In this document: positions 1 to 23,013 of the stretch, piece by piece
Layout of the letters: each line of letters opens with the position of its first letter
Numbering within the stretch: position 1 is the stretch's first letter
Virus record (IMG/VR): IMGVR_UViG_3300021962_000683
Location: 1 to 23,013 of that record
Direction: 5' to 3' (one strand)
DNA: 23,013 nt
Origin: a virus
Translations under genes and position numbers: made by a program
The notes under the pieces: model-generated
Database searches by the model: none
What the model saw: the letters and a program-made list of their open reading frames with translations, nothing else
Told to the model about the DNA's origin: nothing

Positions 1-37
1 TGACATAATATCAGCAATGAGATATTGTGTTATGTCA
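1..37. repeat. Inverted repeat / hairpin at window edge
   Basis: TGACATAA at 1-8 is perfectly complementary to TTATGTCA at 30-37. Inside it, TATC at 9-12 can pair with GATA at 21-24, leaving a 5-base bulge on the 3' side. It lies inside the partial upstream reading frame and has no following T-run, so it is not a classical terminator. It may extend upstream of the window. Its role is unknown. Confidence 0.5.
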
Positions 38-112
38 TTAAGAAAAGCAAGAATAAAAAATTATGAACCAACTCAACTATATTCAGATAGCAATTTTAAT
101 ATATTTACGTAA
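2..112 (+). CDS. 3' end of an upstream gene (partial)
   Basis: An open frame runs from the first bases of the window to a TAA at 110-112. It encodes about 36 residues ending in SDSNFNIFT. It probably is the C-terminus of a gene beginning upstream, because no ribosome binding site precedes the internal ATGs at 17 and 32. The peptide is basic in the middle (SLRKARIKNYE) and matches no family I can name. A short gene starting at 17 is possible but less likely. It ends 22 bases before the next start. Confidence 0.4.
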   Translation, partial: DIISAMRYCVMSLRKARIKNYEPTQLYSDSNFNIFT

Positions 113-115
113 ATA
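102..115. repeat. Perfect 14-base palindrome
   Basis: TATTTACGTAAATA reads identically on both strands. It spans the stop codon of the upstream frame and lies about 20 bases before the first complete gene. It could be a dimeric protein-binding site ahead of the structural operon. It could also be chance in AT-rich DNA, since only the central ACGT is compositionally unusual. Confidence 0.4.
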
Positions 116-134
116 ATAACAATGAGGTAAAAAT

Positions 135-386
135 ATGGGTGGTGCGGCAAGAATAATTAAAAGCGTTTTTTCAAGTCCAAAACCAGCGCCAGTAGTACAA
201 CAAGTAGAAGCACCTAAAGCAGAACCAGCGCAAATGGCTGATGCAACAGGACAAACAAAAGCAAAACTTATGGGTTCTGGTTATGGTGGTTCAACTATTA
301 TGTCTACTGCGGCAGGTGTTGAAGATGAAGCAAATGTAAGCAAAACTGTATTAGGCGGCGGAAGAAAAAGAAAAATTAGAGCATAG
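135..386 (+). CDS. Small virion-type protein upstream of portal (T7 gp6.7-position)
   Basis: An 83-residue protein starts at ATG 135 with GAGG at 124-127 as ribosome binding site. Residues 1-12 form a short amphipathic segment (MGGAARIIKSVF). Residues 15-45 are rich in Pro, Ala, Gln and Glu. Residues 50-76 carry a conserved tail with GVEDEANVSKTVLGGG, followed by a basic end (RKRKIRA). The same tail recurs in the gene at 805-1014. By position it matches T7 gene 6.7, whose product is a small virion protein near the portal. That equivalence is inferred from gene order and the small disordered character, not from clear sequence similarity. The stop overlaps the next start by one base (TAGTG), so translation is probably coupled. 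Confidence 0.75.
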   Translation: MGGAARIIKSVFSSPKPAPVVQQVEAPKAEPAQMADATGQTKAKLMGSGYGGSTIMSTAAGVEDEANVSKTVLGGGRKRKIRA

Positions 387-814
387 TGATAGTTGCTGTT
401 ACAGATGAAAAATGGCGCAATCGTATTTTTGATTATGTAAAAGTAAAAGCACATATTAATCAAGATTTAAACAATCAATTTTCTTTTATAGGTTTTGTAG
501 AAAATGATAATATTTTAGGTGGTTTAATATTTTCTGATTATGATGGTCATAATATTTTTGTGCATTTAGCTTTAGAAACTCCTAAAGTTTGTCAAAGAAG
601 ATTTATTAAAATGATGTTTTCCTACTGTTTTAATCAATTAAAATGTAGTAGAATGACAGCAATGTGCGTAAATGGTTACACCAGAAATGAAAGATTGTTA
701 AAAGGTGTTGGATTTACAAAAGAAGGTGTTATAAGAAAAGTTATGAAAGTCAAAGATAAATTTGTAGATAGTGCAATTTATGGAATGTTAAAGGAGGAAT
801 GCAAATGGGTATGA
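386..814 (+). CDS. GNAT-like acetyltransferase-fold protein (T7 gp7-position)
   Basis: A 142-residue protein starts at GTG 386, overlapping the preceding TAG stop. No other start gives a full-length product, because the next in-frame Met is beyond residue 70. The second half resembles GNAT N-acetyltransferases: a helix around residues 67-86 (CQRRFIKMMFSYCFNQL), the strand CSRMTAMCV (87-95), then NERLLKGVGFTKEG (101-114), which fits the GNAT motif B arrangement of a helix followed by a GF strand, and a closing strand DSAIYGML. The usual acetyl-CoA loop (Q/RxxGxG/A) is not obvious, so enzymatic activity is uncertain. It sits between the two small motif-sharing proteins and upstream of portal, where T7 encodes the host-range protein gp7. 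A virion or host-modifying role is inferred. Confidence 0.7.
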   Translation: MIVAVTDEKWRNRIFDYVKVKAHINQDLNNQFSFIGFVENDNILGGLIFSDYDGHNIFVHLALETPKVCQRRFIKMMFSYCFNQLKCSRMTAMCVNGYTRNERLLKGVGFTKEGVIRKVMKVKDKFVDSAIYGMLKEECKWV

Positions 815-1014
815 AATCAGCACCACAAATGCCACCACCAGTAGATACTTCTGTACAAGACAAAGTTGATGCTTCCGAAGCAAAATTAGAAGCAGAAAAA
901 CAAAAATCTTTATCAAGAAAAAAACAAGGAATGTACGGAACAATTTTAACAAGTGGACAAGGCGTTGAGGACGAAGCATCTACATCTAAAACAGTTTTAG
1001 GTGGCGGTGTATAA
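805..1014 (+). CDS. Small virion-type protein upstream of portal (T7 gp7.3-position)
   Basis: A product of 69 residues is predicted with the start at ATG 805. A strong ribosome binding site, AAGGAGG at 791-797, leaves only one base before the ATG at 799 but seven before 805, so 805 is preferred. It overlaps the end of the preceding gene. The N-terminus is Pro/Met-rich, the middle is a charged helix (KVDASEAKLEAEKQK), and the end is YGTILTSGQGVEDEASTSKT followed by VLGGGV. The last 16 positions closely match the protein at 135-386. Position just before portal matches T7 gene 7.3, a small virion protein needed for tail attachment or ejection. Function is inferred from position only. Confidence 0.75.
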   Translation: MGMKSAPQMPPPVDTSVQDKVDASEAKLEAEKQKSLSRKKQGMYGTILTSGQGVEDEASTSKTVLGGGV

Positions 1015-1024
1015 ATAAAATACT

Positions 1025-2686
1025 ATGGCAACATACGAGTATATTAAAAAACGAGTTGATGCGTTAGCATCTGATAGAGGTACGTGGGAAGTAAACTGGC
1101 AAGAAATTCTTGATTATGTTATGCCACGTAAAGCAGATGTTGTTACTTTAAGAACAAAAGGTGAAAAACGTACAGAAGTTTTATTTGACAGTACAGCAAT
1201 AACTGCTTGTAATTTATTAGCCGCAAGTTTACACGGAACACTTACATCACCATCACTACCTTGGTTTTCAATTAAATTACGAGATGAAGATTTAAACAAA
1301 AGTAGAGATGTACAATTATGGTTAGAAGATACAGGAAGAAGAATGTATGACACTTTTAACGAAACAAATTTTAACACAGAAGTACACGAATTATATCTTG
1401 ATCTATGTTCAATAGGTACAGCCGCAATATTTGTAGAAGAAGGAAATAATGGTTTTGATAAAGATGGAATACACTTTAACACATTACACATTGCAGAATA
1501 TTATATTCAAGAAAACATAAATGGAAAAGTTGATACACTTTATAGAAAATATAAATTAACAGCTAGACAAGCTGTACAAGAATTCGGTGAAAAAAATGTA
1601 GGTGAAAAAATTTTAAAATCGGCAAAAGAAAAACCAGATCAAAAATTTAATTTTATACACGCAGTAGAACCAACAGAAGATTACAAAAGAGCAGTAGGTA
1701 AATCAGCAACTAAATTACCTTTTCATTCTTGTCACGTTTGCGAAGAAGATAAAATGGTAGTTAGAACAGGTGGATACAATGAGTTTCCATACTTAGTACC
1801 TAGATGGTCAAAAGCAACTGGTGAAATTTTTGGTAGATCACCAAGTTACAATGCATTACCAGATATTAAAACTTTAAACAAAGCAGTTGAGATTGGATTA
1901 AAAGCGTGGGCAAAAGCAATAGATCCACCATTACTTGTTCAAGATGATGGTGTTATAGGTAGAGTTAGAACTACACCTGCTGGTATTACAATTATTAGAA
2001 ATGATGGTGCAATTAAACCATTACAAATTGGATCTAATTGGCAAATAACAGATTTAAAAGAAAATCAATTACGTACTGCTATTAGACAAGCATATTATTC
2101 AGATCAATTACAATTACAAGACGGGCCACAAATGACAGCAACAGAAGTACAAGTTAGATATGAATTAATGCAAAGATTACTTGGCCCAACATTAGGTAGA
2201 TTTCAAACAGAATTTTTAAATCCATTAATTGAACGTATATTTGGTATTATGTATCGTTCAGGTGCATTAAACAAAGCACCATCAAGTATTGATGATGCAA
2301 AAATAGATATTGAATATGTTGGCCCATTAGCACGTTCACAAAGAATGGAAGAAGCAGTTGCTATAGAAAGATTATATCAATTAGCAATGAACATTGGACA
2401 AGTAGATCCTGCTATTATGGATAATATAGATCACGACGAAGCAATAAGAATGAGAGCAAAATTATTAGGTGTACCTAAAACAATTATGAAAGATCCAAAT
2501 GATGTTAATGACATTAGAGAACAAAGAGCAATGATGCAACAAGCACAACAACAAGCACAATTACAACAAGCCCAAGCACAAACAGCTTTAACACAAGGAC
2601 AAGCAATGAACCAGTTAGGCCAACCACAAGCGCAAGAAGGAATGGAACAAGCAGAACAAGCCGCTAGAGAACAAGGTTTAATTTAA
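1025..2686 (+). CDS. Portal (head-tail connector) protein, T7 gp8 family
   Basis: This is the dodecameric portal through which DNA is packaged and ejected, and the joint between head and tail. The 553-residue length agrees with T7 gp8 (536). The N-terminus (YIKKRVDALASDRGTWEVNW, residues 6-25), the following QEILDYVMPRK and the segment TACNLLAASLHGTLTSPSLP (around residues 60-79) are characteristic of podoviral head-to-tail connectors. FPYLVPRWSKATGEIFGRSP and the later QTEFLNPLIERIFGIMYRSG also fit the family. The last 55 residues are Gln/Ala-rich, as is common in this family. There is only a weak ribosome binding site upstream of ATG 1025, 11 bases after the previous stop. It is followed by the Bbp19-like gene and scaffold, the standard order for capsid assembly. 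Confidence 0.95.
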   Translation: MATYEYIKKRVDALASDRGTWEVNWQEILDYVMPRKADVVTLRTKGEKRTEVLFDSTAITACNLLAASLHGTLTSPSLPWFSIKLRDEDLNKSRDVQLWLEDTGRRMYDTFNETNFNTEVHELYLDLCSIGTAAIFVEEGNNGFDKDGIHFNTLHIAEYYIQENINGKVDTLYRKYKLTARQAVQEFGEKNVGEKILKSAKEKPDQKFNFIHAVEPTEDYKRAVGKSATKLPFHSCHVCEEDKMVVRTGGYNEFPYLVPRWSKATGEIFGRSPSYNALPDIKTLNKAVEIGLKAWAKAIDPPLLVQDDGVIGRVRTTPAGITIIRNDGAIKPLQIGSNWQITDLKENQLRTAIRQAYYSDQLQLQDGPQMTATEVQVRYELMQRLLGPTLGRFQTEFLNPLIERIFGIMYRSGALNKAPSSIDDAKIDIEYVGPLARSQRMEEAVAIERLYQLAMNIGQVDPAIMDNIDHDEAIRMRAKLLGVPKTIMKDPNDVNDIREQRAMMQQAQQQAQLQQAQAQTALTQGQAMNQLGQPQAQEGMEQAEQAAREQGLI

Positions 2687-2689
2687 TTT

Positions 2690-3710: not shown

Positions 3711-3720
3711 TTAATAATTG

Positions 3721-3729: not shown

Positions 3730-3735
3730 TACAAC

Positions 3736-3915: not shown

Positions 3916-4776
3916 ATGTCAGTACAAATAACAACAGCTTTTGTAGAACAATACAAAAGTAATGTGTTTCATTTGGCACAACAAAAAGGTTCTAGATTAA
4001 GAGATGCGGTAAGATCTGAAAGTGTTACAGGTAAATCGCATTTTTTTGAAAGAATTGGGTCAACTGCGGCACTAAAAAGAACTTCTAGACACGCTGATAC
4101 TCCAAGAGTAGATACGCCACACTCTAGAAGAAAAGTAACAATGGAGGACTACGATTGGGCAGATCTTATTGATCAAGAAGATAAAGTAAGAATGCTTATA
4201 TCACCTCAATCTGAATACGCTAAAGCGGGTGCTTATGCTATGGGTAGAGCTATGGACGACGCAATTATTGCGGCGGCTGTAGGCAATGCTCTTGCTGGAG
4301 TAAGTGGTGGAACAACTGTTCCATTACCTTCTGGTCAAAAAGTAGCTGTAGCGTCTTCTGGATTATCTGTAACAAAATTAATTTCTGCAAAAGAAATTAT
4401 TGATGCGGCAGATGTTGATCCAGATGAAGAAAGATATTTAATTTGTTCGGCTAAACAAATTTCTGATTTGTTAGCACTTACTCAAATTACTTCATCTGAC
4501 TACAATTCAGTTAAAGCGTTAGTACAAGGTCAAATTGATACGTTTATGGGTTTCAAGTTTATCAGAAGTGAAAGACTTGGAGTTGATGGATCTAGCAATA
4601 GACAAGTATTAGCATTCACAAAATCAGCAATGGGTTTGGCTGTCGGAAAAGATATGAGTACAAAAATATCTGAAAGAGCAGACAAAAACTATGCTACACA
4701 GGTATTTTTATCTATGACTATCGGCGCTACGAGAGTAGAAGACGAGAAAGTAGTAGAAATAGCTTGTCAAGAATAA
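3916..4776 (+). CDS. Major capsid protein
   Basis: A 286-residue protein, the shell subunit of the head. The start SVQITTAFVEQYKSNVFHLA, the motif QQKGSRLRDAVRSE and then KRTSRHADTPRVDTPHSRRK (about residues 55-74) followed by DYDWADLIDQEDKVRMLI are characteristic of a short capsid protein family common in marine podoviruses. It is well below the 345 residues of T7 gp10 and does not resemble it. An HK97-type fold is expected. A strong ribosome binding site AGGAGG lies at 3901-3906. Position after scaffold and before a 140-residue beta-rich protein matches the capsid/cement pair of phage BPP-1. It has its own predicted promoter, leader and terminator, consistent with the need for the highest expression in the cassette. 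There is no sign of a frameshifted long form. Confidence 0.92.
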   Translation: MSVQITTAFVEQYKSNVFHLAQQKGSRLRDAVRSESVTGKSHFFERIGSTAALKRTSRHADTPRVDTPHSRRKVTMEDYDWADLIDQEDKVRMLISPQSEYAKAGAYAMGRAMDDAIIAAAVGNALAGVSGGTTVPLPSGQKVAVASSGLSVTKLISAKEIIDAADVDPDEERYLICSAKQISDLLALTQITSSDYNSVKALVQGQIDTFMGFKFIRSERLGVDGSSNRQVLAFTKSAMGLAVGKDMSTKISERADKNYATQVFLSMTIGATRVEDEKVVEIACQE

Positions 4777-4787
4777 GGAGATAAATT

Positions 4788-5210
4788 ATGGCTAGTGTAA
4801 AAGGATCTAATTTTACCAACATAACTGCTGATCCAGTTGTAAAAACTTCATCACAGTATGCACACGGTAAATTAAGAATACAATACGACAGTTACGAGGC
4901 ATCTTCTTTGGCTAATCCATCTGATATTTCAGTTGCAAGATTACCAAAAGGCGCAGTAGTGTATGATGTAATCATTCATCACGACGCTTTAGGTTCTGGT
5001 GTAACTCTATCAGTAGGTGATAGCGGTAGTGCAACAAGATATATTGGTGCAACTGCGGCGGCAACTGCTGGTAAAGTAGTAATGTCAGAAGATGGCGCTA
5101 TTGACGGTTTCGGCTATGAAAATACTGCTGAAACAGATGTTTTAATTACTGTAGGCGGCGCTACTGCTACTGGTACAATTAAATGTACGGTAGTTTACGC
5201 TGTTGAGTAA
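4788..5210 (+). CDS. Putative capsid cement / decoration protein
   Basis: A 140-residue protein starts at ATG 4788 behind AAGGAG, 11 bases after the capsid stop. It is rich in Gly, Ala, Ser, Thr and Val, with alternating beta-strand patterns (GAVVYDVIIHHDAL, GVTLSVGDSGSATRYIGA, TDVLITVGGATATGTIKCTV) and no membrane segment or charged coil. These features, its length and its place directly after the capsid gene match phage cement proteins; BPP-1 has one of the same size in the same place. It would bind the outside of the shell and stabilise it. The assignment is by context and composition. A head fibre or head-closure protein is the alternative. A terminator follows 20 bases after its stop. 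Confidence 0.65.
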   Translation: MASVKGSNFTNITADPVVKTSSQYAHGKLRIQYDSYEASSLANPSDISVARLPKGAVVYDVIIHHDALGSGVTLSVGDSGSATRYIGATAAATAGKVVMSEDGAIDGFGYENTAETDVLITVGGATATGTIKCTVVYAVE

Positions 5211-5229
5211 TAACTAACTAAACAACTAT

Positions 5230-5265
5230 AAGGGGCGATATATATTGAATTATAGTCGCCCCTTT
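5230..5265 (+). terminator. Hairpin terminator after the capsid-cement pair
   Basis: AAGGGGCGA at 5230-5238 pairs perfectly with TCGCCCCTT at 5256-5264. TATA at 5239-5242 can continue the stem with TATA at 5251-5254, leaving one bulged G. The trailing T-run is short (TTT then GATAT), so termination may be partial, letting some transcription through into the tail genes. It is the only strong GC stem in an intergenic space outside the capsid leader. Confidence 0.75.
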
Positions 5266-5281
5266 GATATATTAATTTATT

Positions 5282-5860
5282 ATGGCTACAGAAGTATCAA
5301 TTTGTTCAAATGCACTAAGAAGATTAGGTGATGATCCAATTACTTCATTAACAGATGATACAGAAAGAGCCAGATTGTGTAATGCATTTTATGCAGACGC
5401 AAGAGATGCTTGTTTAAGATCTCACCCTTGGAATTTTGCAATTACAAGAGCAAGTTTAGCAAAATTATCAGATGCCCCAGCATACGGTTTTAATTATCAA
5501 TACTCATTACCAACAAATCCATATTGTTTAAGAGTATTAGAAATGGAATATAAAGATTACATTTTTAAAATTGAAAATGTAGCAACACACGGTAGAGTAT
5601 TATTAACAGACGAAGGTACTGCTAATATTTTATACATAGCAAGAATTACAGACACTAATTTATTTGATGCAATGTTTGTAGATGTTTTAACTGCAAAACT
5701 ATCTTTAGATTTAGCATATCCTGTAACTAACAGTATGCAAGTGCAACAACAAATGCAGAAACTCTATCAAGCAAAACTTTCTGAAGCACGTAGTATTGAC
5801 GGACAAGAAGGATTTATTGATGATCTTGTTTCTGATACATTTACGGACTTTAGAAAATAA
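5282..5860 (+). CDS. Tail tubular protein A (T7 gp11-like adaptor)
   Basis: A 192-residue protein, close to T7 gp11 (196). The N-terminus EVSICSNALRRLGDDPITSL, then DDTERARLCNAFYADARDAC and LRSHPWNFAITRASLA are the standard signature of this family. It forms a 12-fold ring under the portal that closes the head and receives the nozzle. A ribosome binding site is weak or absent before ATG 5282, after an AT-rich stretch following the terminator. Its TAA overlaps the ATG of the next gene by one base (TAATG), so the adaptor and nozzle proteins are translationally coupled. Confidence 0.93.
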   Translation: MATEVSICSNALRRLGDDPITSLTDDTERARLCNAFYADARDACLRSHPWNFAITRASLAKLSDAPAYGFNYQYSLPTNPYCLRVLEMEYKDYIFKIENVATHGRVLLTDEGTANILYIARITDTNLFDAMFVDVLTAKLSLDLAYPVTNSMQVQQQMQKLYQAKLSEARSIDGQEGFIDDLVSDTFTDFRK

Positions 5861-8328
5861 TGGCAAGAGTACATCCTTTTCAAACAAATTTTACTGCTGG
5901 TGAATTAACACCCAAACTTGCAGGTCAAGTTGATTTTAAAAAATATAATAATGGTGTTGAAGTATTAGAAAATATGACGGTGTTTCCACAAGGAGGCGCT
6001 ACAAGAAGATATGGAAGTAGATTTGTTGCAGAAGTAAAAGATAGTAGTAAAACAACTAGATTAATACCTTTTGAATTTAATATAGAACAATCTTACATTT
6101 TAGAATTTGGCGATCAATATATTCGTTTTTTTAAAGACAACGGACAAATTACAAATACAGCAAAAAATATTACAGGAATAACAAAAGCAAATCCTGCTGT
6201 AGTAACAGTTGCATCACACGGATATTCAAATGGCCAAGATGTTTGGATTAATAGTGTTGGTGGTATGACAGAAGTAAATGGTAGAAGATTTAGAATTGCA
6301 AATGTAACTACAAATACTTTTGAATTATCTGGTGTAAATAGCACAGGTTATACTACATACACATCTGGTGGTACTGCCGCTAGTGTTTATGAAATAGCAT
6401 CACCGTTTACTGAAAGTATGTTGTATGACATACAATTTACACAATCAGCAGACGTTATGTATATCGTACAAGAAACATTACAACCTAGAAAATTATCTAG
6501 AACAGGGCATACGTCTTGGACATTATCAACTGTACAATTTATTAATGGCCCATATTTAGATGATAACGAAACATCTACAACATTTACATCATCTGCATCT
6601 GGTGTTGGTACAGGAAGAACACTAACTGCATCTTCTACAACAGGTATAAATGATGGTGCTGGTTTTAAATCATCAGACGTTAGTAGATCAGTAAGAATGA
6701 AAGATGGATGGGGTGTAATTACAGCATTTACATCAACAACCCAAGTTACTTGGGAAATTAAATTAGATATTGGATCTGCGGCGGCTACAACAGATTGGGC
6801 ATTAGGTGCTTGGTCTGATGATACAGGTTATCCAAGAACAGTATCATTTTTTGAACAAAGATTAGTATTTGGTGGAAGCACAGCATATCCTCAAACTATA
6901 TGGGCAAGTGAAAGTGGTTTTTACGAGCATTTTCATAGAGGCGCAGGTGATCCAGCAGACGCATTTATTTATACTATTGCGGCAAACAAAGTAAACGTAA
7001 TTAGATGGTTAGCACCTGCAAGAGATTTAATTGTTGGTACAGCAGGTGGTGAATTTAAAGTAGGAAGACCAACTGGTGAGCCATTACAACCCGACAACGT
7101 GCAAATTACACAACAAACAACATATGGCGGATGGAATACACAACCAATACAAATTGGTAATGCTGTATTATTTTTACAAAGACAAAGAAAAAAAATTAGA
7201 GAATTTTCTTACAGATTTGAAGATGATGCTTATTTAGCACAAGATATGACTTTGTTATCTGACCATATAACAGGAAATGGAATAACAGATGTAGATTACG
7301 CACAAGAACCAGATAGTATTTATTGGGCAATTAGAGATGATGGTACATTGTTAGGAATGACATATCAAAGACAAGAAGATATTATTGCTTGGCATAGACA
7401 TATTCTTGGTGGTTCTTATAAAATTACATTTAATGGTGCATCAGATGTTACTGATAGTAGCACAGATCCAAATAAAAACGGATACATAACTATCTCAAAT
7501 CACGGTTTATCGACTGGTGATGAAGTAGTTTATAGTGCTGGTGGTGGTACTAAAGTTGCTGGATTAATAGATGGTGAAACATATTATGTTTATAAAATAG
7601 ATGCAAATAACATTGAATTAGCATCAACATACGAACAAGCAATAGATAGAACAATATTACAAATTAATGATGGTGTAGGATCTGGTCATACTTTAACAGG
7701 AAAATCACAAGCAAAAAGTGTATCTACAATATCAGAAGCAACAGAAAACCAAATTTGGTTAATTGTTCGTAGAAGAATAAACGGAAATATAGTACAATAT
7801 GTTGAATATTTAGATCCATTAATAAAATTAGATAGTGGTTTATCTGGAGTAGTTAATGGTGATAGTACAAATATTACTGGATTAGATCATCTAGAAGGTG
7901 AAGAAGTACAGATCCTTATAGGTGATGCGGTATATCCAAATCAAACAGTAACTAATGGTAAAATAAATGTTAATTTACCATCTAATACAAGTTACAAAAG
8001 TATTGAGATTGGATTAGGATATACGTCTAGAATTAAAACAATGAGAATTGAAGCAGGATCACAAGCGGGTACTGCACAAGGACGTAAAAAAAGGTATAAT
8101 GAAGTTATGGTAAGATTACATAAAACAGTAGGTATTATAATCAACGGCGATCAATTACCTTTTAGAACATCATCAACCCCAATGGGTCAAAATATTCCAG
8201 AATTTACTGGCGATAAAAGAGTTATTAATTTAGGATGGGATAGAGATGGGCAAATAGAAATTAAACAAGAACAACCATTACCAATGACGGTATTAGGTAT
8301 AACAGGAACATTAGTAACAAGTGATTAG
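5860..8328 (+). CDS. Tail tubular protein B (T7 gp12-like nozzle)
   Basis: An 822-residue protein against 794 in T7 gp12. It forms the hexameric nozzle at the tail end. The beginning HPFQTNFTAGELTPKLAGQV, then NNGVEVLENMTVFPQGGATR and RYGSRFVAEVK is diagnostic, as is YPRTVSFFEQRLVFGGS with the following TIWASESGFYEHF in the middle. Two small inserted beta modules are visible. Residues about 104-175 carry ASHGYSNGQDVWINSVGGMT and NGRRFRIANVTTNTFELSGV. Residues about 528-615 carry ISNHGLSTGDEVVYSAGGG and YYVYKIDANNIELAS. Both follow the HGxxxGDxV pattern of the so-called E1 FCCH-like domain often inserted in podoviral tail proteins. They may be fibre docking or sugar-binding decorations. It is followed by GGAGG and the internal protein genes. 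Confidence 0.93.
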   Translation: MARVHPFQTNFTAGELTPKLAGQVDFKKYNNGVEVLENMTVFPQGGATRRYGSRFVAEVKDSSKTTRLIPFEFNIEQSYILEFGDQYIRFFKDNGQITNTAKNITGITKANPAVVTVASHGYSNGQDVWINSVGGMTEVNGRRFRIANVTTNTFELSGVNSTGYTTYTSGGTAASVYEIASPFTESMLYDIQFTQSADVMYIVQETLQPRKLSRTGHTSWTLSTVQFINGPYLDDNETSTTFTSSASGVGTGRTLTASSTTGINDGAGFKSSDVSRSVRMKDGWGVITAFTSTTQVTWEIKLDIGSAAATTDWALGAWSDDTGYPRTVSFFEQRLVFGGSTAYPQTIWASESGFYEHFHRGAGDPADAFIYTIAANKVNVIRWLAPARDLIVGTAGGEFKVGRPTGEPLQPDNVQITQQTTYGGWNTQPIQIGNAVLFLQRQRKKIREFSYRFEDDAYLAQDMTLLSDHITGNGITDVDYAQEPDSIYWAIRDDGTLLGMTYQRQEDIIAWHRHILGGSYKITFNGASDVTDSSTDPNKNGYITISNHGLSTGDEVVYSAGGGTKVAGLIDGETYYVYKIDANNIELASTYEQAIDRTILQINDGVGSGHTLTGKSQAKSVSTISEATENQIWLIVRRRINGNIVQYVEYLDPLIKLDSGLSGVVNGDSTNITGLDHLEGEEVQILIGDAVYPNQTVTNGKINVNLPSNTSYKSIEIGLGYTSRIKTMRIEAGSQAGTAQGRKKRYNEVMVRLHKTVGIIINGDQLPFRTSSTPMGQNIPEFTGDKRVINLGWDRDGQIEIKQEQPLPMTVLGITGTLVTSD

Positions 8329-8338
8329 GAGGATATAA

Positions 8339-8761
8339 ATGGCTTTTCCGTGGTTAGCATTAGCAATAGGCGCAAGTACAGCAGTTTCTTATATGGGAAG
8401 TTTACAAACTTCTAAACAATTAAAAGCAGGTGCGGCTTGGGATAAATATTACAAAGACATAGAAAAAAAACAAAACATTATTGCGGCTAACAAACAAGCA
8501 ACAAAATTATTAAGTGCTAAAAGAGCATCTTTTGGTGCAAGAGGTGTATCAATGGGAACAGGGTCATCTTTATTTGACCAAGAACAAGTTGTTACAAATT
8601 TAGAAGAAACATTATTTTGGATAGAAAAAGGAGTAGAAATGGATATAGCAATGATAGATGTTAAATTAGCAGGTAAACTAAGCGAAGAAAGTTGGAGTAG
8701 AAATACCTCATTATTGAAAGGAATAGGTCAAACGTATAGTGCAAGTAGTAAAACTGCTTAA
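8339..8761 (+). CDS. Internal virion protein, T7 gp14-like
   Basis: A 140-residue protein starts at ATG 8339 behind AGGAGG. Residues 3-21 (FPWLALAIGASTAVSYMGSL) form a hydrophobic, Gly/Ala-rich helix. Then come charged helices with AAWDKYYKDIEKKQNIIAAN and LLSAKRASFGARGVSMGTGS followed by SLFDQEQ. The SKRASFGARGVSxxxGS type of segment is common in the small internal proteins of podoviruses. In T7 the equivalent gp14 is ejected first and lodges in the outer membrane. This one is shorter than T7 gp14 (196). Position between nozzle and the two larger internal proteins supports the call. Confidence 0.75.
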   Translation: MAFPWLALAIGASTAVSYMGSLQTSKQLKAGAAWDKYYKDIEKKQNIIAANKQATKLLSAKRASFGARGVSMGTGSSLFDQEQVVTNLEETLFWIEKGVEMDIAMIDVKLAGKLSEESWSRNTSLLKGIGQTYSASSKTA

Positions 8762-8764
8762 TTT

Positions 8765-8950
8765 ATGTATAAAATTAGAGTTTGGGATAGTGATGTTATG
8801 ATTTTTGAAGGATATAGTAAAAAAATACCAAAAGCAGGTCAAGATTTTGAAGGATGGACTATTAGTAAAGATGAAAATGGTTCAATTATAAAATCTGTTT
8901 ATAACCCTGCTAAATACAGAATAACTTACGAGGACGTAGATGGCAATTAA
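8765..8950 (+). CDS. Small hypothetical protein in the internal-protein operon
   Basis: A 61-residue protein starts 4 bases after the previous stop without a clear ribosome binding site and overlaps the next gene by 11 bases. Its beta-rich sequence (MYKIRVWDSDVMIFEGYSKK, then GWTISKDENGSIIKSVY) is not recognised. It has no signal peptide or membrane helix. The overlap on both sides and codon use like its neighbours make it a real gene. A minor virion or assembly role is inferred only from its position. Confidence 0.7.
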   Translation: MYKIRVWDSDVMIFEGYSKKIPKAGQDFEGWTISKDENGSIIKSVYNPAKYRITYEDVDGN

Positions 8951-10877: not shown

Positions 10878-10883
10878 GTTAAA

Positions 10884-16800: not shown

Positions 16801-17996
16801 CACCAAACTTTTTAAGAAAAGGTAATGGTGCTTGGTTATATAATAATATGTTTTTATTTGGTAACGTATTTAAAGAAGCAAATAGATCTACATTAGAAGC
16901 AAAAAGATATCATACATTATATAAAATACCTTTTACTGATAAATATTGGGCGGCTGGATGGTACGGTAAATTATTTCAAACTACAATAGCGCCTAAAATA
17001 TTTTATAGAGCCGCTAAATTAGGTATGTTTGGTAAAGCCGCACATATGTATTTTAACTTAATAGGTAATGATGTTCTTGCTAATTATAGTGTAATACCTT
17101 TAGGAGTTATTAATGAAAAAGGTGAATTTGAAACAGGTATGGATAGCCAAGATGGTACTTTAAAAGCAGTATATTTACAGTTTCCATTAGACGAATTTCA
17201 AAAATTTATTGGTGCTTTATCGTGGCATTCAATGATTGAAACTTGGGGTGATGTAAAAGATGATAATGAAACTAATGTATTTGAAACATTAATGAAAACA
17301 GGTGTTGGTGTATTAGATGAGAATACTCCAAGTCTTACACCTTTTGTACCTTTAGTAACTAATGCAGTAAGATCTCTTGGATTTGGTGACACTTTACCTA
17401 AAGATTATTTTACTGGTAAAGACTTATATCCAGAATATTTACAAAAAGCAGAAGGTATGTTGGCTATGAAAATGAGAATGAAAGCGTGGTCTAAATATGC
17501 TTGGAATAATGGTGGTGGTTTAATGTTTTATAAATTTGATACATATTATGATCCATTTAATCAGAAAAAAATAGTAACAGAAATTGAAGAAAAATTAGGT
17601 GTACCAATATTTGGTAAAACATTAGGTAGATTTATAAAAGTATCTGATAGAGGTATGAAAGAAAGAGTTTGGGAACAAATATCTAAATCAAGAGTAGAAG
17701 AAGATACAGCTAAAGTTATTGTTGATAATGCTATGCAAAAAATAATGAGTGATGACGGTACTTTAAATATGGACAAATTAACCCCAGAAGAAAATAATGC
17801 TATGCTTACTGATATAACTTGGGTTAAAAGATATGAAAAAGCAGTATCTAAAACATTTGGTAATCAATGGTCTAGATTATTAAGTGGATTAGAGGGTAGA
17901 GATTTACTAGAAGCCATACAAGAAATGACTAGAATAGAGTATGATTTTAGATATAATTTTAATTATGATGAGAATGAATTGAAAAAGAAAGAATAA
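10884..17996 (+). CDS. Giant internal virion protein with lysozyme-like and zinc metallopeptidase domains (T7 gp16-position)
   Basis: A 2370-residue protein, far longer than T7 gp16 (1318). Residues 6-45 hold two short GYS/GYT helical repeats (LKQAGYSDEDIALWVDEK and FNAAGYTQLEQSEHLGI). Residues about 170-330 resemble the lysozyme/transglycosylase-like domain of ejected phage proteins: NESWGS with Glu224 as candidate acid, TTGLFRM from 237, then LTKDAQTALFLSYM. Residues about 442-625 are Gly/Ala-rich and hydrophobic, probably membrane-interacting. Residues 711-762 look like an SH3/KOW module (VGNKVKT, NGEIVSIGFKNGEHVYKIKK). His1099-Glu-Leu-Gly-His1103 followed by FIDY is a zinc HExxH site, and SPELFADF with Glu1298 is the likely third ligand. 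The C-terminal half is helical, resembling large polyvalent phage proteins. It would be ejected into the host and open peptidoglycan. The peptidase target is unknown. Confidence 0.85.
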   Translation: MATVLELKQAGYSDEDIALWVDEKKKKFNAAGYTQLEQSEHLGIPYKTTNSLINNQMIGPKDPQNYDIQDIENNLTEQQKIDLEINTNTQTDNTTQELENKEAEAFNNYVKQQMELQDIDPNYVPYNFRNSLEEQAFANKNKLNLGINAKIYDDKGLPLDENYHKEFTLEEDFITPHGGTSGNTINAIDNFYTGLGLKDEEKRYGAFVLNETLKHYSKLLTGNESWGSRSYSFGDNTTGLFRMSNEQVQTGLNKYIDTLTQSNQPLPYWVEELSEDKDVSGLTKDAQTALFLSYMSTQPNFQKDFLDLLRGKDQKTAVRNMLFNNFLIPRKIKPEEFTVLNNRLTDNLQKHWLQKEFKSTTMQVPAFGKWMPDAISMSGDNLFGEGRRSTFVRGWDQSVTSMAFRLYNDLKQANATGENPMDIQKLIDSFMTNGQRWDKRAMAGITSVLSDLPIFGAGGASATALTFGTTGPVAAMGGAFGLHEALRWALMEAYRQNELGTFEDFWSLVLSKAAAKHYGKGFGTGVMVYAGGKYGSKVIGYSLAKTPLKNTAVGQKIINFATGTGKAGGEIAMLAQAPHIMEWIASGGQEEFKIPTKEEFLDAAVIIFGLKAGHKGWTYAKDGAVTGVKTTAQWLQNGTEKLYQIYAKTGKTPKTILKDAEKDPSILDDLQNKEKPIPDAYINLNNIIKKRVDQLSGKNEINQNTVSAPKFIVGNKVKTISTGVENGEIVSIGFKNGEHVYKIKKPDGELFNLPESAVEKYTPKKEIIIWEDPTEFKIKQQRGEYDSKIEILERDNQLFDTTTHRTSQAIFENYKEIGTSVDGKAQTNKMMLWIKEYYPKLVKEGEKLIEKGKKLEGELFNLTIDQMVKRILPEKLNEYPIRLLFKVDRNNNLGAERPIVVGEVDGKIFNFDLHSYMALKKLKDGSDAVVTAHLGTNQSGTARGVMIFRDNKGNTTGLLMSRAGSEKITNEAIKFRNEFGTRSKSFADAQPSSVGSQRGFPKWDDLNLNPDTNVFKGLQLSDLVKIFKDLSGNSVVAKNIKSRKGFITLGLFYPRGKGEIVLNEKLFDTRIYLEDGTSRPATKAEYRKKLEGVLMTMAHELGHFIDYIPDASMARGNILGRIKSLKGFMKSWTEGKEGGFPPLTAAEKAAMRKTAEKRAKEREKETDKELKEEGIDPKDILKIITDARAREILPPEVYEGFAKANTALKKEIIKDAMKGIVNPYIRNIVKGGEKNATNEQKAEANKIFKEMFEKEVIKRGLVGRDQVMNELKKLTQRWKPFNDKVQRDYTDYRYSSPELFADFMMSFLLQPKQTLKAAPITTSLWLNFMHRKPEVMREYEMIQMELALPKDQKIANLIKEQVITSMENTAKMQKKANDELQSEGSYDTMRRWFDYHAFTIINYYKKVMGDNHWWSSPTSKKRFETPLKDNVEQQIERYQYTDALIEGLQNKLYKVFWKPMLDSGINRHIFATYLQNRLVMNPSGTRANVLNPKGIDRFQAEAIVRQLEQKYSGDRANGILSIRELAERFYDYRQKEIITVFEELGLDPISLEIARSNKEYVTFAVEEYARFMNDTWVKGFVQNTKFGTSKDVMNVLDATILKDWALITVLQRHQMISTTVRFLKNYKEQIEGLDRKQLQWNGRFKGLKIVQPIKERVYEEAVWDFMKKRWKPKTKNLDTSSVKAGYKLVEWMENGERKAAYIGTEMADALNGLQSSRNLVDLHRLTYGMNTPYRKLFTEINPPFWGYNVFRDIFRTVQNLDGARLFDIINGGKNSFFKKWVQSLPAAYRSIFDPKNADPIVLEMLQNREILSVWSKYRNRAEGLLEGDPNWSQTTDGAVRSFLLLSREKNWRSMSKEQIEAFFEKVKDKEITEYSLEELNFNNQLRDSIINSYEKRFMETNWLGKGKTGFLIGENSWLQPYYKLITSAEMMSRVFERTTKIAAKRDLLDRRQQGLIDWSDAQIEYAVRNWAGSPNFLRKGNGAWLYNNMFLFGNVFKEANRSTLEAKRYHTLYKIPFTDKYWAAGWYGKLFQTTIAPKIFYRAAKLGMFGKAAHMYFNLIGNDVLANYSVIPLGVINEKGEFETGMDSQDGTLKAVYLQFPLDEFQKFIGALSWHSMIETWGDVKDDNETNVFETLMKTGVGVLDENTPSLTPFVPLVTNAVRSLGFGDTLPKDYFTGKDLYPEYLQKAEGMLAMKMRMKAWSKYAWNNGGGLMFYKFDTYYDPFNQKKIVTEIEEKLGVPIFGKTLGRFIKVSDRGMKERVWEQISKSRVEEDTAKVIVDNAMQKIMSDDGTLNMDKLTPEENNAMLTDITWVKRYEKAVSKTFGNQWSRLLSGLEGRDLLEAIQEMTRIEYDFRYNFNYDENELKKKE

Positions 17997-18017
17997 GATG
18001 ATAATATAAGGTGATAT

Positions 18018-20225
18018 ATGACTATTTCTACAACAATTATTAAAGTTAGTTATTCTGGTAACGGTTCTCAAACGGTATTTCCATATACGTTTAAGATTAA
18101 TGCCGAAGCAGATATACAAGTTATTATAAGAGCCGCTAACGGAACAGAAACCGTTAAGACTTTAACAACAGATTATTCTGTAAGCGGTGTAGGATCTGCT
18201 AGTGGTGGTAATGTTACTATGGTAACAGCACCAAGCGCTACAGAAACTATTGTTATAAGACGAGAAACTTCACAAACACAAACAGTTGACTTAGTTGAAA
18301 ATGATCCTTTTACTGCTGAAACAGTTGAAGGTGCATTTGATAAATCAATAGCAGTATCACAAGAATTGCAAGAAGAAGTAGATAGATCTATTAAACTATC
18401 AAGAACAAACACAATGACATCTACAGAATTTACAGTAGATGCGGCAACTAGAGCAAACAAAATTTTAGCATTTGATGCTAACGGTGAGATTGCAGTTACA
18501 CAAGAATTAGGAACATACAAAGGTAATTGGTCTGCTAGTACATCTTATAGTGCTAGAGATATTGTAAAAGACACAAGTACCAATAACATTTTTATATCAA
18601 ATACAGCACACACATCATCTGGTGCATTACCATTAACAACAAATACAGATAGTGCTAAATGGGATTTATTAGTTGATGCGGCATCAGCAACAGCAAGTGC
18701 TAGTGCGGCGGCAACAAGCGCAACCAATGCGGCAAACAGCGCAAGTGCGGCGGCGACATCAGCATCTAATGCGGCTACATCAGAAAGCAATGCCGCTACA
18801 TCAGCATCAACAGCAACAACACAAGCAACTAATGCGGCAACAAGCGCAACTAACGCTTCTAATAGTGCAACGGCGGCGGCTAATAGTGCAAGTGCGGCAG
18901 AAGCATATGCTGATAATTTTGATGATGCATATTTAGGCGCAAAAGCATCTAACCCAACTGTAGATAATGACGGTGATCCGTTAGCAGATGGTGCATTGTA
19001 CTTTGACACAACTAACAATGTAATGAAAGTTTATGATCTTGGTACAACAACTTGGTTTCAACTTACTCCAACAGTTTCAAATCAAACCAATATTAATACA
19101 GTTGCATCAATTTCTAATGAAGTTCAAACTGTCGCAAGTGATAGTGCTGATATTCAAGTAGTTGCATCAGATAGTGCTGATATTAGAACATTAGCTGATA
19201 TTGAAGATGGAACAACTGCAACTAATGCAGTTTCAAATGCTGGTAATAATGCAACAAACATTACAACAGTTGCAGGACAAATTTCACCAACTAACAACAT
19301 TGCAACCGTAGCATCAGCAAATGCAAATATTTCTGCTGTTGCAGGTCAAATATCACCAACAAATAATATTGCAACAGTTGCAGGTGCAAATTCTCAAATT
19401 ACAACAGTTGCAAACAATCTAAATGGCGCTAACACTATTGGAACAGTTGCAGGTTTAAATGCTGAAATTTCAGCACTTGGCCCTATATCTGCTGACATTA
19501 CAACTGCGGCAAACAATGTTACAGATATTACTAATTTTGCTGACGTATATGTTGGGCCATCAGCAACACCACCAACAACAAGAGCAGATAGTTCCGCACT
19601 TCAAGTTGGTGATTTATATTTTGATACAGCAACTTCAACAATGAAAGTTTACTCATCTGGCGGGTGGGTATCTACAGGTTCTAGCGTTAACGGTACTGCA
19701 AGTAGGTTTATTTACACAGTATCTTCTAGTACAGTAACAATTACAGGCGCAGACAATAGTGGTAATACTTTGGCATATGATGCAGGATATGTAGATGTAT
19801 ATCTAAACGGGGTTAAAATGGTTAATGGTACAGATATTACAGCTACATCTGGAAATAGTATTGTATTTGCTAGTGCAATCGGCGCATCTGGTACAGATAC
19901 CGTAGATATTATAGCATATGGTACATTCTCATTATCTAATTTTAGTATTAATGATGCTAATGACGTTTCAACTGCGGGTATTACAGACGGCCAAGTATTG
20001 ACTTGGAATGCATCTGCTAGTAGTTTCCAAGCAGGAAATGCTAGTAGTGCGGAAGTTTATGGGTTTAGTGTTAATGGTAGTGGTCAATTAATAGTAACTA
20101 CAACTGGTGGCGGTGTAGATAATATAGATGCGGCAACATATGCTTCATTTGATGATGTATTATTTGCGGCATCTGGATTTACTTTTAGCATTGATAGTGG
20201 TGGAAATTTAATTGCAACAATATAG
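18018..20225 (+). CDS. Tail fibre protein with T7 gp17-like attachment domain
   Basis: A 735-residue protein. Residues 1-150 match the tail-attachment domain of T7 gp17: YSGNGSQTVFPYTFKINAEA, LTTDYSVSGVG, IVIRRETSQTQ, then FDKSIAVSQELQEEVDRSIK. Residues about 163-200 form a small aromatic module (YKGNWSASTSYSARDIV). Residues 221-295 are an Ala/Ser/Thr/Asn heptad array likely to form a trimeric helical shaft. Residues 307-350 and 511-557 are two copies of a GxLYFDTxxxxMKVY module. Residues 417-490 are VAGQISPTNNIATVA-type repeats. The C-terminus (about 640-735) contains GITDGQVLTWNASASSFQ, a common fibre repeat, and ends in beta strands. It binds the tail through the N-terminus and carries or supports receptor-binding parts. 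Ribosome binding site AAGGTG. Confidence 0.9.
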   Translation: MTISTTIIKVSYSGNGSQTVFPYTFKINAEADIQVIIRAANGTETVKTLTTDYSVSGVGSASGGNVTMVTAPSATETIVIRRETSQTQTVDLVENDPFTAETVEGAFDKSIAVSQELQEEVDRSIKLSRTNTMTSTEFTVDAATRANKILAFDANGEIAVTQELGTYKGNWSASTSYSARDIVKDTSTNNIFISNTAHTSSGALPLTTNTDSAKWDLLVDAASATASASAAATSATNAANSASAAATSASNAATSESNAATSASTATTQATNAATSATNASNSATAAANSASAAEAYADNFDDAYLGAKASNPTVDNDGDPLADGALYFDTTNNVMKVYDLGTTTWFQLTPTVSNQTNINTVASISNEVQTVASDSADIQVVASDSADIRTLADIEDGTTATNAVSNAGNNATNITTVAGQISPTNNIATVASANANISAVAGQISPTNNIATVAGANSQITTVANNLNGANTIGTVAGLNAEISALGPISADITTAANNVTDITNFADVYVGPSATPPTTRADSSALQVGDLYFDTATSTMKVYSSGGWVSTGSSVNGTASRFIYTVSSSTVTITGADNSGNTLAYDAGYVDVYLNGVKMVNGTDITATSGNSIVFASAIGASGTDTVDIIAYGTFSLSNFSINDANDVSTAGITDGQVLTWNASASSFQAGNASSAEVYGFSVNGSGQLIVTTTGGGVDNIDAATYASFDDVLFAASGFTFSIDSGGNLIATI
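18675..18905 (+). repeat. Heptad Ala/Ser/Thr repeat array in the fibre shaft
   Basis: About ten imperfect 21-base units encode seven-residue repeats of the form xNAATSA or SAAATSA. They cover fibre residues 220-295. GC content is locally higher because Ala-Ala is written with GCG. It is a classic phage fibre helical shaft and a hotspot for length change by recombination. Confidence 0.8.
19264..19480 (+). repeat. Degenerate NxxTVAGQISPTNNIATVA repeats in the fibre
   Basis: Two clear copies of a unit containing VAGQISPTNNIATVA are followed by decayed copies (TVANNLNGANTIGTVAG, then NAEISALGPISADITTAANN). The DNA copies differ mostly at synonymous positions, so the duplication is old or the repeat is under selection for protein shape. 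They encode fibre residues about 416-488. Confidence 0.7.
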
Positions 20226-20263
20226 ATTGAAAGTAGAACAAAAATAGGATAAAAGGAGTACAT

Positions 20264-21079
20264 ATGGCAACAGTAAATTTAGGTTCAATAAAATTTAATT
20301 GGCAAGGTGCATACAATGGTGCAACTGCCTACGCAGTAGATGATGTAGTTAGCTACAATGGCTCAAGCTATGTTTGTAAATTAGCATCTACAGGTAACTT
20401 ACCAACTAACACTACATACTTTGATTTAATGTCTAGTGCAGGTACTAATGGTACTAATGGAACAGACTTAACAACAACATTAACAACACAAGGCGATTTA
20501 GTTTATCGTGATGGTTCAGGTCTGCAAAGACTTGGTGCAGGAACAAGTGGTCAAGCATTAATTACAAATGGTGCAGGTGCAAATCCATCTTGGGGTGATG
20601 TATCTGGTGGATTAATTAAAGCAACTACTTTTTATGATGCAACTAGACAAGGACTTCCTAACAGTGCTGACACTGCTCTTATTTCAATGACATTTAATAA
20701 ACAAGAAGACGCAAACACTTCAAAAGTTATAGTTATAGCTTCTATTCCTGGTTTCGGTCAAAATAGTAATACTGCTGGTTGGTACTTTGATTGTTTAACT
20801 TCTGGTATGACAACACATAATACTAATGACAGTTTTGCTTTTCAAGGCGTTAATCAAGGAAATGCTAATAGTGCTGGTGAAGTTGATACTGTAACTATTA
20901 ATAAAACTTTTGAAGATACAACTAATTTTGGTGTTGGTAATCATACTTTTGAATTAGGTTATAGGTCAAGAAATGGCACAGCAAATTTTCCATATGTTGT
21001 AATAAATCCTAATTCATCAGATGACCCAAGATGTCATCAAAAAGCATCATCATATCAATTTTTAGAAGTATTAAGATAA
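20264..21079 (+). CDS. Second fibre / tail tip protein
   Basis: A 271-residue protein starts at ATG 20264 with AAGGAG seven bases upstream. Residues 11-57 form a small aromatic module (FNWQGAYNGATAYAVDDVVS, then YNGSSYVCK) of the same pattern as residues 163-200 of the preceding fibre, resembling carbohydrate-binding modules of family 5/12. Residues 61-68 are a GTNGTNGT stretch. Residues 72-112 (TLTTQGDLVYRDGSGLQRLG, then GQALITNGAGANPSWGDV) are a repeat common in phage fibres. Residues 118-271 look like a compact beta-rich tip domain that ends in SYQFLEVLR. It lacks the T7-type attachment domain, so it may dock onto the main fibre or be a separate receptor-binding subunit. Confidence 0.75.
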   Translation: MATVNLGSIKFNWQGAYNGATAYAVDDVVSYNGSSYVCKLASTGNLPTNTTYFDLMSSAGTNGTNGTDLTTTLTTQGDLVYRDGSGLQRLGAGTSGQALITNGAGANPSWGDVSGGLIKATTFYDATRQGLPNSADTALISMTFNKQEDANTSKVIVIASIPGFGQNSNTAGWYFDCLTSGMTTHNTNDSFAFQGVNQGNANSAGEVDTVTINKTFEDTTNFGVGNHTFELGYRSRNGTANFPYVVINPNSSDDPRCHQKASSYQFLEVLR

Positions 21080-21091
21080 GGAGAAAAATAA

Positions 21092-21352
21092 ATGGCTATA
21101 TTTGATAAAATCATTTTTAAAAAAGAAAACTATAAAGGTTATACAGGTAATCCACCAAGTAATGAAACTGAATACAATGAAATGAAAACAGATATGTTTT
21201 CTGGTACAGCACCAATTTGGGCAGAAGTACAAACTGAAATGGATAATTATGTAGACCCAAAAGTTAGTGGCAATCAAAAGCTATTAGACTTGGGATTAAC
21301 ACAAGCTGAAGCAACTGCACTTACAGGTTACACACCACCAACGGAGGCATAA
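21092..21352 (+). CDS. Small hypothetical protein between fibre genes
   Basis: An 86-residue acidic protein starts at ATG 21092 behind AAGGAG. It contains YTGNPPSNETEYNEM, PIWAEVQTEMDNYV and NQKLLDLGLTQAEATALTGY. It has no membrane segment or known domain. Similar small proteins occur next to fibre genes in marine phages, so a fibre assembly or chaperone role is possible but unproven. Its stop TAA at 21350-21352 lies in the loop of a hairpin that covers the next gene's ribosome binding site, so it probably controls the translation of that gene. Confidence 0.7.
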   Translation: MAIFDKIIFKKENYKGYTGNPPSNETEYNEMKTDMFSGTAPIWAEVQTEMDNYVDPKVSGNQKLLDLGLTQAEATALTGYTPPTEA

Positions 21353-21358
21353 TCCGTT
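21340..21358 (+). promoter_or_regulatory. Stop-start hairpin covering the tip-protein ribosome binding site
   Basis: AACGGA at 21340-21345 pairs perfectly with TCCGTT at 21353-21358. The 7-base loop contains the stop codon of the upstream gene (21350-21352), and the ATG of the downstream gene is the next base. GGAGG at 21343-21347, the ribosome binding site, is half inside the stem. A ribosome finishing the 86-residue gene would open it, giving translational coupling. Confidence 0.55.
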
Positions 21359-22891
21359 ATGACTAAAGCAAGAGATATTGCTGACTTTAAATTTGAAAAC
21401 ATAGTTGATACTGGTACTGAAGGTACTAAAGTCGCTAGTGGTACTACAGCACAAAGAGGTACAACAGCAGGTCAATTAAGATTTAATTCTACGACAGGAT
21501 TAGCTGAATATTATACTGGTACTGCTTTTAAAAGTATTGATAGTCCACCAACAATTTCATCACTTGATGTGACAGAAGTAGATAGTCAAGCAGGTGGAAA
21601 TCAGACAATAGTTATTACTGGTTCTGGTTTTAATGCAGGTGCTACTGTGACTTTTGTAGGAAATAGTGGAACAGATTTTAACGCATCAACTGTAACTGTA
21701 GATAGTGATACTCAAATTACTTCTGTTGCACCTAAAGCTAGTTTTTTAAATGCACAAGAACCTTATGGTGTTAAAGTTACAAATGTTTCTGGTTTATCAG
21801 CAACACTTGCTAGTCAAATTAATGTAGATAGTTCGCCAACTTGGAATACAGCAAGTGGAACATTAGCAACAATTTACGATATGGCTACTGGTACTCACGC
21901 AACAGTTTCAGCAACAGACCCAGATGGTGATACAGTTTCTTATTCTGAAACTGGTGGAACAGTTTTATCTACAAATAATTTATCTTTAAATTCTTCTACA
22001 GGTGCAATTTCTGGTGACCCAGTTGATGTTGTTAGTCCAACAACTCATACATTTACTTTAAGAGCAACAGCAAACTCTAAAACTGCTGATAGAAGTTTTA
22101 ACATAATTGTTAATCCTACTTTAGATGGCTCTACAAGTGCTAAAGCAAATACTTCGGCACAAGCAATTTATGATGTTACTGGAACAACAACAGATGGATT
22201 ATATTGGATAAAAGATAGTTTAGGCAACACTCAACAAATGTATTGCAATATGTCAGCTACAAATGGCAAATGGATTTTAGTAGCTAGTAATAACTGGTCA
22301 AGCAGTACGCTACCTGCGGGTAATGGCGGAAACTCTACATCATATCAAATTAATAGAAATGGAACTTTAGGTGCTTTAGGAACTGCTGACCCAAACAGCG
22401 ATTATTTAGCAGGTGCTATAGTTGATAATATGACTTTTCAATACGCAAGAATTTTAGGTTGGGGTAGAGGTTCAACTAATGGAACTTACTCTTTCACAAA
22501 TAAAGGAAATTGGGATGAAGCTGTTTGGCAACTATCTACTAATACAGGAACAGGAAGATTTACTGAATGGACAAGTACAGCAAATGTAACTTTTACTAAT
22601 AATGAGTTTGCACACGACGATACAGCAGGTACAGGAATGTACGCTATTTTAGATACTGTTCGTTGGTGTCAAACTTATGGAATAACACCAAATGCTAATC
22701 AATTTACTATTGGTGCTTCTGGTCAGTATTGGTCAAACGCACCTTCAAATCCATCAGGTGGAGCTTATAGTGGTTCTTGGTTAGGACACGGTCAAAATGA
22801 AGGTAATGGTGAAGGTTGGTATATTTATGGTGGAGTAAATACTGCAAATGGTGCAGGAGACGCACAAGGTTATACCACTTGGGTAAAATAA
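21359..22891 (+). CDS. Tip/receptor-binding protein with TIG, Ig-like and fibrinogen-like domains
   Basis: A 510-residue protein. Residues 1-60 hold a fibre-type module (TAGQLRFNSTTGLAEYYTG). Residues 63-155 form an IPT/TIG Ig-like domain (PPTISSLDVTEVDSQAGGNQ, then TIVITGSGFNAGATVTFVG). Residues 158-252 are a second Ig-fold, of the cadherin/He-PIG type (ATVSATDPDGDTVSYSETGG, then LNSSTGAISGDP and FTLRATANS). Residues 259-510 resemble a fibrinogen C-terminal domain: DGLYWIKDSLGNTQQMYCNM, then NGKWILVASNNW, and a Gly/Trp-rich end with GEGWYIYGG. Such domains bind sugars or acetylated groups in other systems. The array reads as a display stalk with a lectin-like head, most likely for receptor binding. 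No signal peptide is present, as expected for a virion protein. It follows the coupling hairpin directly. Confidence 0.8.
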   Translation: MTKARDIADFKFENIVDTGTEGTKVASGTTAQRGTTAGQLRFNSTTGLAEYYTGTAFKSIDSPPTISSLDVTEVDSQAGGNQTIVITGSGFNAGATVTFVGNSGTDFNASTVTVDSDTQITSVAPKASFLNAQEPYGVKVTNVSGLSATLASQINVDSSPTWNTASGTLATIYDMATGTHATVSATDPDGDTVSYSETGGTVLSTNNLSLNSSTGAISGDPVDVVSPTTHTFTLRATANSKTADRSFNIIVNPTLDGSTSAKANTSAQAIYDVTGTTTDGLYWIKDSLGNTQQMYCNMSATNGKWILVASNNWSSSTLPAGNGGNSTSYQINRNGTLGALGTADPNSDYLAGAIVDNMTFQYARILGWGRGSTNGTYSFTNKGNWDEAVWQLSTNTGTGRFTEWTSTANVTFTNNEFAHDDTAGTGMYAILDTVRWCQTYGITPNANQFTIGASGQYWSNAPSNPSGGAYSGSWLGHGQNEGNGEGWYIYGGVNTANGAGDAQGYTTWVK

Positions 22892-22919
22892 ATTTTTAAC
22901 AACAACAAAGGAGCAAACT

Positions 22920-23013
22920 ATGTTTGATAATTGGTTCAAGTCTTGGGAAGATATGTTTACTTATGACAACTGGAAAAAAGAAGTCATTAAGTTTAACAAA
23001 AAAGTATGTAAAT
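22920..23013 (+). CDS. Start of a further gene (truncated by window end)
   Basis: ATG 22920 follows AAAGGAG at a good distance. The first 31 residues (MFDNWFKSWEDMFTYDNWKK, then EVIKFNKKVCK) are aromatic and amphipathic, with W5, W9 and W18 in a helical pattern, and have no signal peptide. The family is not recognised with confidence. It is 28 bases after the tip-protein stop and probably belongs to the same transcript. Confidence 0.65.
   Translation, partial: MFDNWFKSWEDMFTYDNWKKEVIKFNKKVCK

Follow-up and report, generated by a model that had tools for sequence, protein, structure and literature searches.

Restriction-site avoidance is a known phage strategy: among viral genomes tested against the systems of their hosts, about a tenth are reported to have lost Type II recognition sites wholly or almost wholly (Rusinov et al. 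2018, PMC6286503). Haloviruses of the HF1 group have several palindromic tetramers at zero, GATC and CTAG among them, and HRTV-7 additionally lacks AGCT (PMC7230728). In pelagiphages, a clade-wise depletion of GANTC has been described, a single motif that is methylated by SAR11 (Seong et al. 2022, PMC9516812). The subject of the present analysis is the tetranucleotide CATG in a linear virus fragment of 23,013 bases (IMG/VR record IMGVR_UViG_3300021962_000683, positions 1 to 23,013; hereafter the window), from which it is absent. The loss is complete, mostly synonymous and palindrome-specific; it is on or off among close kin and has originated repeatedly in two phage families. Host restriction at CATG very probably purged the sites of the window's lineage, and the window is a well-supported new case of the strategy.

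The window has a GC (guanine plus cytosine) content of 32.2%, and its Pfam matches show a T7-like podovirus, with genes for the portal, the capsid and the tail. Among named phages the closest to it is Pelagibacter phage EXVC032P Baldr (OQ414636), isolated on strain HTCC1062. Portal, capsid and tail proteins are common to the two and lie in identical order, with 78% identity in the portal and 71% in tail tubular protein B, and by this gene content the window is judged to represent that half of a Baldr-like pelagiphage genome which encodes the structural proteins.

Relative to the cases surveyed by Rusinov et al., the CATG state here flips between close relatives in the same samples and the enzyme is a deduced one. 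The HF1-group haloviruses are other viruses with hosts of another domain, and CATG is under-represented in them (0.24-0.44) but absent from the window. The GANTC-depleted pelagiphages belong to the same phage group as the window and pose the same conflict, given how few restriction systems SAR11 is described as having; whereas that depletion concerns one motif, the sets described here are lineage-specific and also include CATG, GCWGC, CTNAG, ACGT, AGCT and GATC. In the literature searched, no description was found of CATG elimination in these phages, of its repeated switching, or of the private missing-site sets of cultured pelagiphages.

Absence of CATG and codon choice

The original prediction, read from the sequence of the window alone, held that CATG is wholly absent where base composition would give about 70, and proposed a codon-shuffled null as the check. 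A direct count gives zero and, since CATG is a palindrome, covers both strands. Base composition predicts 65 sites and a second-order Markov model 77. The main null consisted of 2000 codon shuffles in which protein sequences and codon usage were held constant; it yields an expectation of 36.2 ± 4.2 sites with a minimum of 24, and none of the 2000 shuffles reached zero (z = -8.5).

The codon choices behind this absence are visible in every context in which CATG could arise. Histidine before a G is written CAC in 21 of 21 cases and before other bases is CAT in 44 of 53, just as had been noticed by eye. Both examples given for this switch are exact and in frame: at 4977-4982 the codons CAT CAC are followed by GAC, and at 14178-14192 the motif HELGH reads CAC GAA TTA GGC CAT, with the second histidine, CAT, preceding a T. 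The same reading had found Ala-Trp never written as GCA TGG, which holds more widely, for serine, proline, threonine and alanine codons followed by TG have T (26) or G (6) as their last base and never A, compared with 1021 A-ending codons of 1969 outside that context. Before ATG, 0 of 120 codons end in C, against 460 of 5744 elsewhere. The histidine, Ser/Pro/Thr/Ala and pre-methionine contexts therefore all change the codon and keep the amino acid, and because every site can be removed synonymously, the removal of CATG can be complete.

Alignments with CATG-bearing kin reveal how the sites were replaced. All CATGs of the aligned kin are replaced in the CATG-free genomes (17 of 17 relative to L003 and 28 of 28 relative to L270), while most control tetramers are retained at about 30-70% in the same alignments. 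The commonest replacements are CACG (57), TATG (38) and CGTG (30), which correspond to third-codon-position changes of the three frames. These counts bear on the suggestion that a mutational or codon-usage bias, for example methylated C lost through deamination or CATG being scarce in pelagiphages at large, produced the absence. Most loci of the family do have only about half as many CATG sites as a Markov model predicts (median 0.52), but that level is close to the level of the codon null. Deamination-type products (TATG by C to T, CATA by G to A) make up just 49 of 194 single changes, and the T-to-C changes, including the main replacement CACG, go against the AT bias, as do the A-to-G changes. 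Because these changes oppose the bias, and deamination yields only the smaller part, selection rather than mutation bias removed CATG. Near kin of equal composition also retain the site, and a bias of either sort, refuted by the codon-shuffled null and by the on/off pattern described below, is very improbable.

CATG state among related and unrelated phages

The following features of the window are referred to in the comparisons, two of them having served as queries.

1025-2686, plus strand: portal (head-to-tail connector), Pfam PF12236, E 4.8e-141; used for a tree and for the kin search
3916-4776, plus strand: major capsid protein, Pfam PF19821, E 3.2e-93
5860-8328, plus strand: tail tubular protein B, 71% identical to the Baldr counterpart by tblastn; used for the second tree
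10884-17996, plus strand: 2370-amino-acid open reading frame (ORF) with the HELGH motif at 14178-14192; no Pfam match
18018-20225, plus strand: putative tail fibre ORF, from its position and matches to annotated pelagiphage tail fibres; used for the kin search
4788-20225, no strand: stretch nearly without AGCT, 6 against 59.9 expected by segment-wise codon shuffle
20226-23013, no strand: distal module with a different missing-site set, by segment-wise codon shuffle and similarity to Pelagivirus phages
1-23013, no strand: whole record, with CATG, GCWGC, CCGG and CGCG all at zero and a single GANTC (at 9783), by direct counts and the codon-shuffled null

Scans of IMG/VR, with the portal and the tail fibre ORF among the queries, supplied several hundred related loci. 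In near kin the CATG count is about 0.7-1.2 times the codon-null value, and in a minority of loci it is zero. Among the former are L003 (17 observed, 22 expected), L014 (20 and 27), L100 (21 and 28), L270 (31 and 29), L061 (70 and 60) and L258 (21 and 30); among the latter, with zero observed, are L095 (24 expected), L249 (20), L265 (16) and L241 (13). Within the window's own clade the early-region contigs L249, L251 and L265 and the terminase region (L002) are CATG-free as well. A minimum of 4 state changes is required on the tree of tail tubular protein B and 7 on that of the portal; counting only those forced by strongly supported branches, at least 3 and at least 7 remain. By these trees, the CATG-free state originated at least three times in the Baldr-like family.

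Both states occur side by side in the same samples. CATG-free L002 and L009 come from metagenome 3300021959 together with CATG-rich L007, L095 from 3300025687 together with L008, and L010 from 3300034374 together with L100. Near-identical contigs from other metagenome records, L002 (99.98% identity) and L094 (99.6%), agree with the window in being CATG-free. Chance, or an artefact of library or assembly such as an NlaIII-based preparation, is refuted by these pairs and by the 2000 shuffles, and its probability is negligible.

Contig L248 holds CATG within its first 3.3 kb and none within its last 2.1 kb, and its last 2.7 kb are about 91% identical to CATG-free L249. It is likely a recombinant between the CATG-bearing and CATG-free states. 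No loss of CATG was seen among 79 loci of HTVC022P-like pelagiviruses. A related clade (L129-L133, L237) wholly or nearly lacks AGCT (0 against 104 expected in a full contig) and likewise CCWGG, and it retains GANTC, GCWGC and CATG.

CATG has also been lost outside the Baldr-like family. The phage G024 (IMGVR_UViG_3300012953_000006; 36,551 bases) has none where the codon null predicts 46, and a second phage with a T7-type RNA polymerase, G025, has one against 30 expected. G024 encodes a T7-type RNA polymerase, an integrase and a tRNA-Leu (L607:4049-4133), and its portal, about 20% identical, marks it as unrelated to the window's family. The genes that G024 and G025 have in common with the window are chiefly distal tail genes, which are present in CATG-bearing phages too, and the nuclease set of G024 (endonuclease I and a 5'-3' exonuclease) is unlike that of the window's family. 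Since CATG was lost independently in two families with different nuclease sets, the cause appears to lie outside the phage. The G024 contig (L606, L607) is also without GATC, GCWGC and GTWAC and has two GANTC, and its tRNA-Leu could point to a host.

Other missing palindromes in the window and in cultured pelagiphages

The original prediction stood where CATG is concerned; the other purged sites, namely GCWGC, GANTC, AGCT and certain six-base palindromes, had been overlooked. Under the codon-shuffled null, GCWGC is at 0 against 45 expected, with a z-score (-19) stronger than that of the CATG loss. GANTC occurs once against 32 expected, AGCT 28 times against 95 across the window, and GGWCC not at all against 8. 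The six-base palindromes CAATTG, CTGCAG and CAGCTG are likewise at zero. All four- and five-base words with an observed-to-expected ratio below 0.15 in the window are palindromes. The specificity extends to the exact palindrome: GCSGC is spared where GCWGC is gone, and CACG, TATG and CGTG stand in for CATG.

The near-purge of AGCT is limited to 4788-20225 and does not extend to the ends of the window; this stretch could mark an ongoing purge or a module from an AGCT-avoiding lineage. At 20226-23013 the set is different, with GATC at 0 against 6.7, ACGT at 0 against 4.3, and AGCT normal at 11 against 12.6. This distal module resembles the Pelagivirus phages HTVC022P, HTVC031P and Eistla, all of which are GATC-free. 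The similar segments of these likely donors also hold no CATG, and a purge after acquisition is thus not readable from the module. The distal tail module looks transferred with the missing-site set of its donor still on board, and missing-site sets seem to travel with gene modules too.

Cultured pelagiphages, nearly all of them HTCC1062 isolates, mostly have missing-site sets of their own, and none of those examined is without CATG. In HTVC010P, CTNAG is at 0 of 115 expected; HTVC022P lacks GATC (0 of 96) and GGCC (0 of 21); and HTVC028P has three GANTC of 120. Unlike the window, Baldr has CTNAG, ACGT and GCGC at zero and retains CATG (71 against a codon null of 87). In CATG-bearing kin of the window's clade CTNAG is absent (0 of 12 expected in L003, 0 of 12 in L014 and 0 of 13 in L100), and it is partly back in CATG-free lineages (7 of 22 in the window and 15 of 20 in L249). 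For the window's clade this reads as one selection turned on, at CATG, and another eased, at CTNAG. Mutual exclusion of the two losses was considered as a general rule and rejected: it holds in the window's clade only, and both sites are missing from 8 of the 14 non-redundant CATG-free contigs.

Source of the selection

Phage genes offer little to explain the loss. No methyltransferase or restriction-like gene is found among the Pfam matches of the window. DNA methyltransferases of the N6/N4 (PF01555), D12 (PF02086) and C5 (PF00145) families gave no match in 19 phage records of CATG-bearing and CATG-free kin, and PF01555 and PF02086 gave none in another six records with no CATG or hardly any; a methyltransferase by which the phage could protect its own DNA was therefore not seen in the records searched. 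The ICEA/NlaIII family (PF05315) also had no match in the phage records, in a search whose control likewise matched nowhere.

T7-like phages degrade host DNA. A phage-encoded CATG-specific nuclease could thus digest the host's DNA while the phage's own genome is rid of the site. Baldr-like phages do carry HNH/Ref-like and PD-(D/E)XK-type nucleases, and about 4-5 kb to the left of the terminase are unseen in any CATG-free member of the Baldr-like family. However, CATG-free L249 shares largely one-to-one orthologous early genes with CATG-bearing L258, L261, L268, L270 and L303, with the HNH/Ref-like nuclease 73-88% and the exonuclease 80-88% identical between the two states and no swap among them. 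Added to the different nucleases of G024, no gene was found that is exclusive to the CATG-free phages of both families and missing from CATG-bearing kin. Such self-avoidance is accordingly improbable. A 60-amino-acid gene beside the exonuclease of CATG-free members (L249, 7393-7575), which occupies the place of two other small genes in most CATG-bearing kin, was rejected as the cause: it resembles no known enzyme, its product is matched in L268 (53%), a CATG-bearing locus, and it is confounded by ancestry.

With no methyltransferase found, nucleases like those of the CATG-bearing relatives and no gene seen to be exclusive to the CATG-free phages, a factor outside the phage is favoured, and we infer it to be a host restriction enzyme that recognizes CATG itself. 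Host restriction, the explanation given in the original prediction, is the best supported by the palindrome-specific, mostly synonymous and recurrent loss that is on or off among kin; the term "NlaIII-type" used there describes a specificity only and not a gene. The hosts, or a sizeable share of them, would possess a Type II restriction system whose nuclease cleaves CATG when it is unmethylated. As no methyltransferase is found in the phages examined, each unmodified CATG would reduce the chance of survival of the infecting genome, and synonymous site-destroying changes would be favoured until no CATG remained. The silent routes are CAT to CAC before G, NCA to NCT or NCG before TG, and NNC to NNT before ATG. 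Through different enzymes, the same process may have led to the loss of GCWGC and GANTC.

A second host-side explanation invokes restriction that depends on methylation. Here, an orphan methyltransferase in some hosts would mark CATG and a Type IV Mrr-like enzyme would cut the methylated progeny elsewhere, so that loss of CATG escapes the mark. We know of no CATG methyltransferase in SAR11, and the scheme requires two enzymes where one would do. In its favour, the same idea has been proposed for the loss of GATC in the HF1 haloviruses, with Mrr acting on methylated GATC (PMC7230728). An orphan enzyme of SAR11 methylates GANTC, a motif that is depleted in about half of the pelagiphages (PMC9516812), as it is in the window. 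Methylation-dependent restriction is unlikely to account for the CATG loss, though it is a more serious contender than a phage nuclease.

Several points weigh against direct restriction by a Type II system of the host. The assignment of SAR11 as the window's host depends solely on kinship with Baldr. SAR11 has been described as poor in restriction systems (PMC9516812), and the number of different sites avoided by pelagiphages is large; in favour of the explanation, however, such systems are reported in 19 of 172 Pelagibacter genomes (PMC11066056). A search of bacterial genomes with the portal alignment returned two phage contigs in a metagenome-assembled genome of Verrucomicrobia and no credible host, and in this one scan, which reached no SAR11 genome, no host with a CATG system was found. 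Furthermore, cultured pelagiphages, nearly all from one strain, differ in their missing sets, which places the enzymes elsewhere or in the past. Because isolates of one strain lack different sets of palindromes, the enzymes behind the selection probably lie outside the isolation strain, in other hosts or in earlier ones.

SAR11 are among the most abundant marine bacteria and are described as having few defences against phages. On balance, pelagiphage genomes may be read as a record of unseen, patchy and quickly changing Type II restriction systems in SAR11, with the palindrome sets of each lineage being gained, swapped and carried on modules. The repeated and complete loss of CATG in two phage families suggests that, somewhere in nature, restriction at this site acts on them strongly. 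Such a loss predicts a CATG nuclease and methylase in the hosts of these phages, which should be visible in genomes or methylomes, and missing-site sets may offer a means of pairing uncultured phages with host types.

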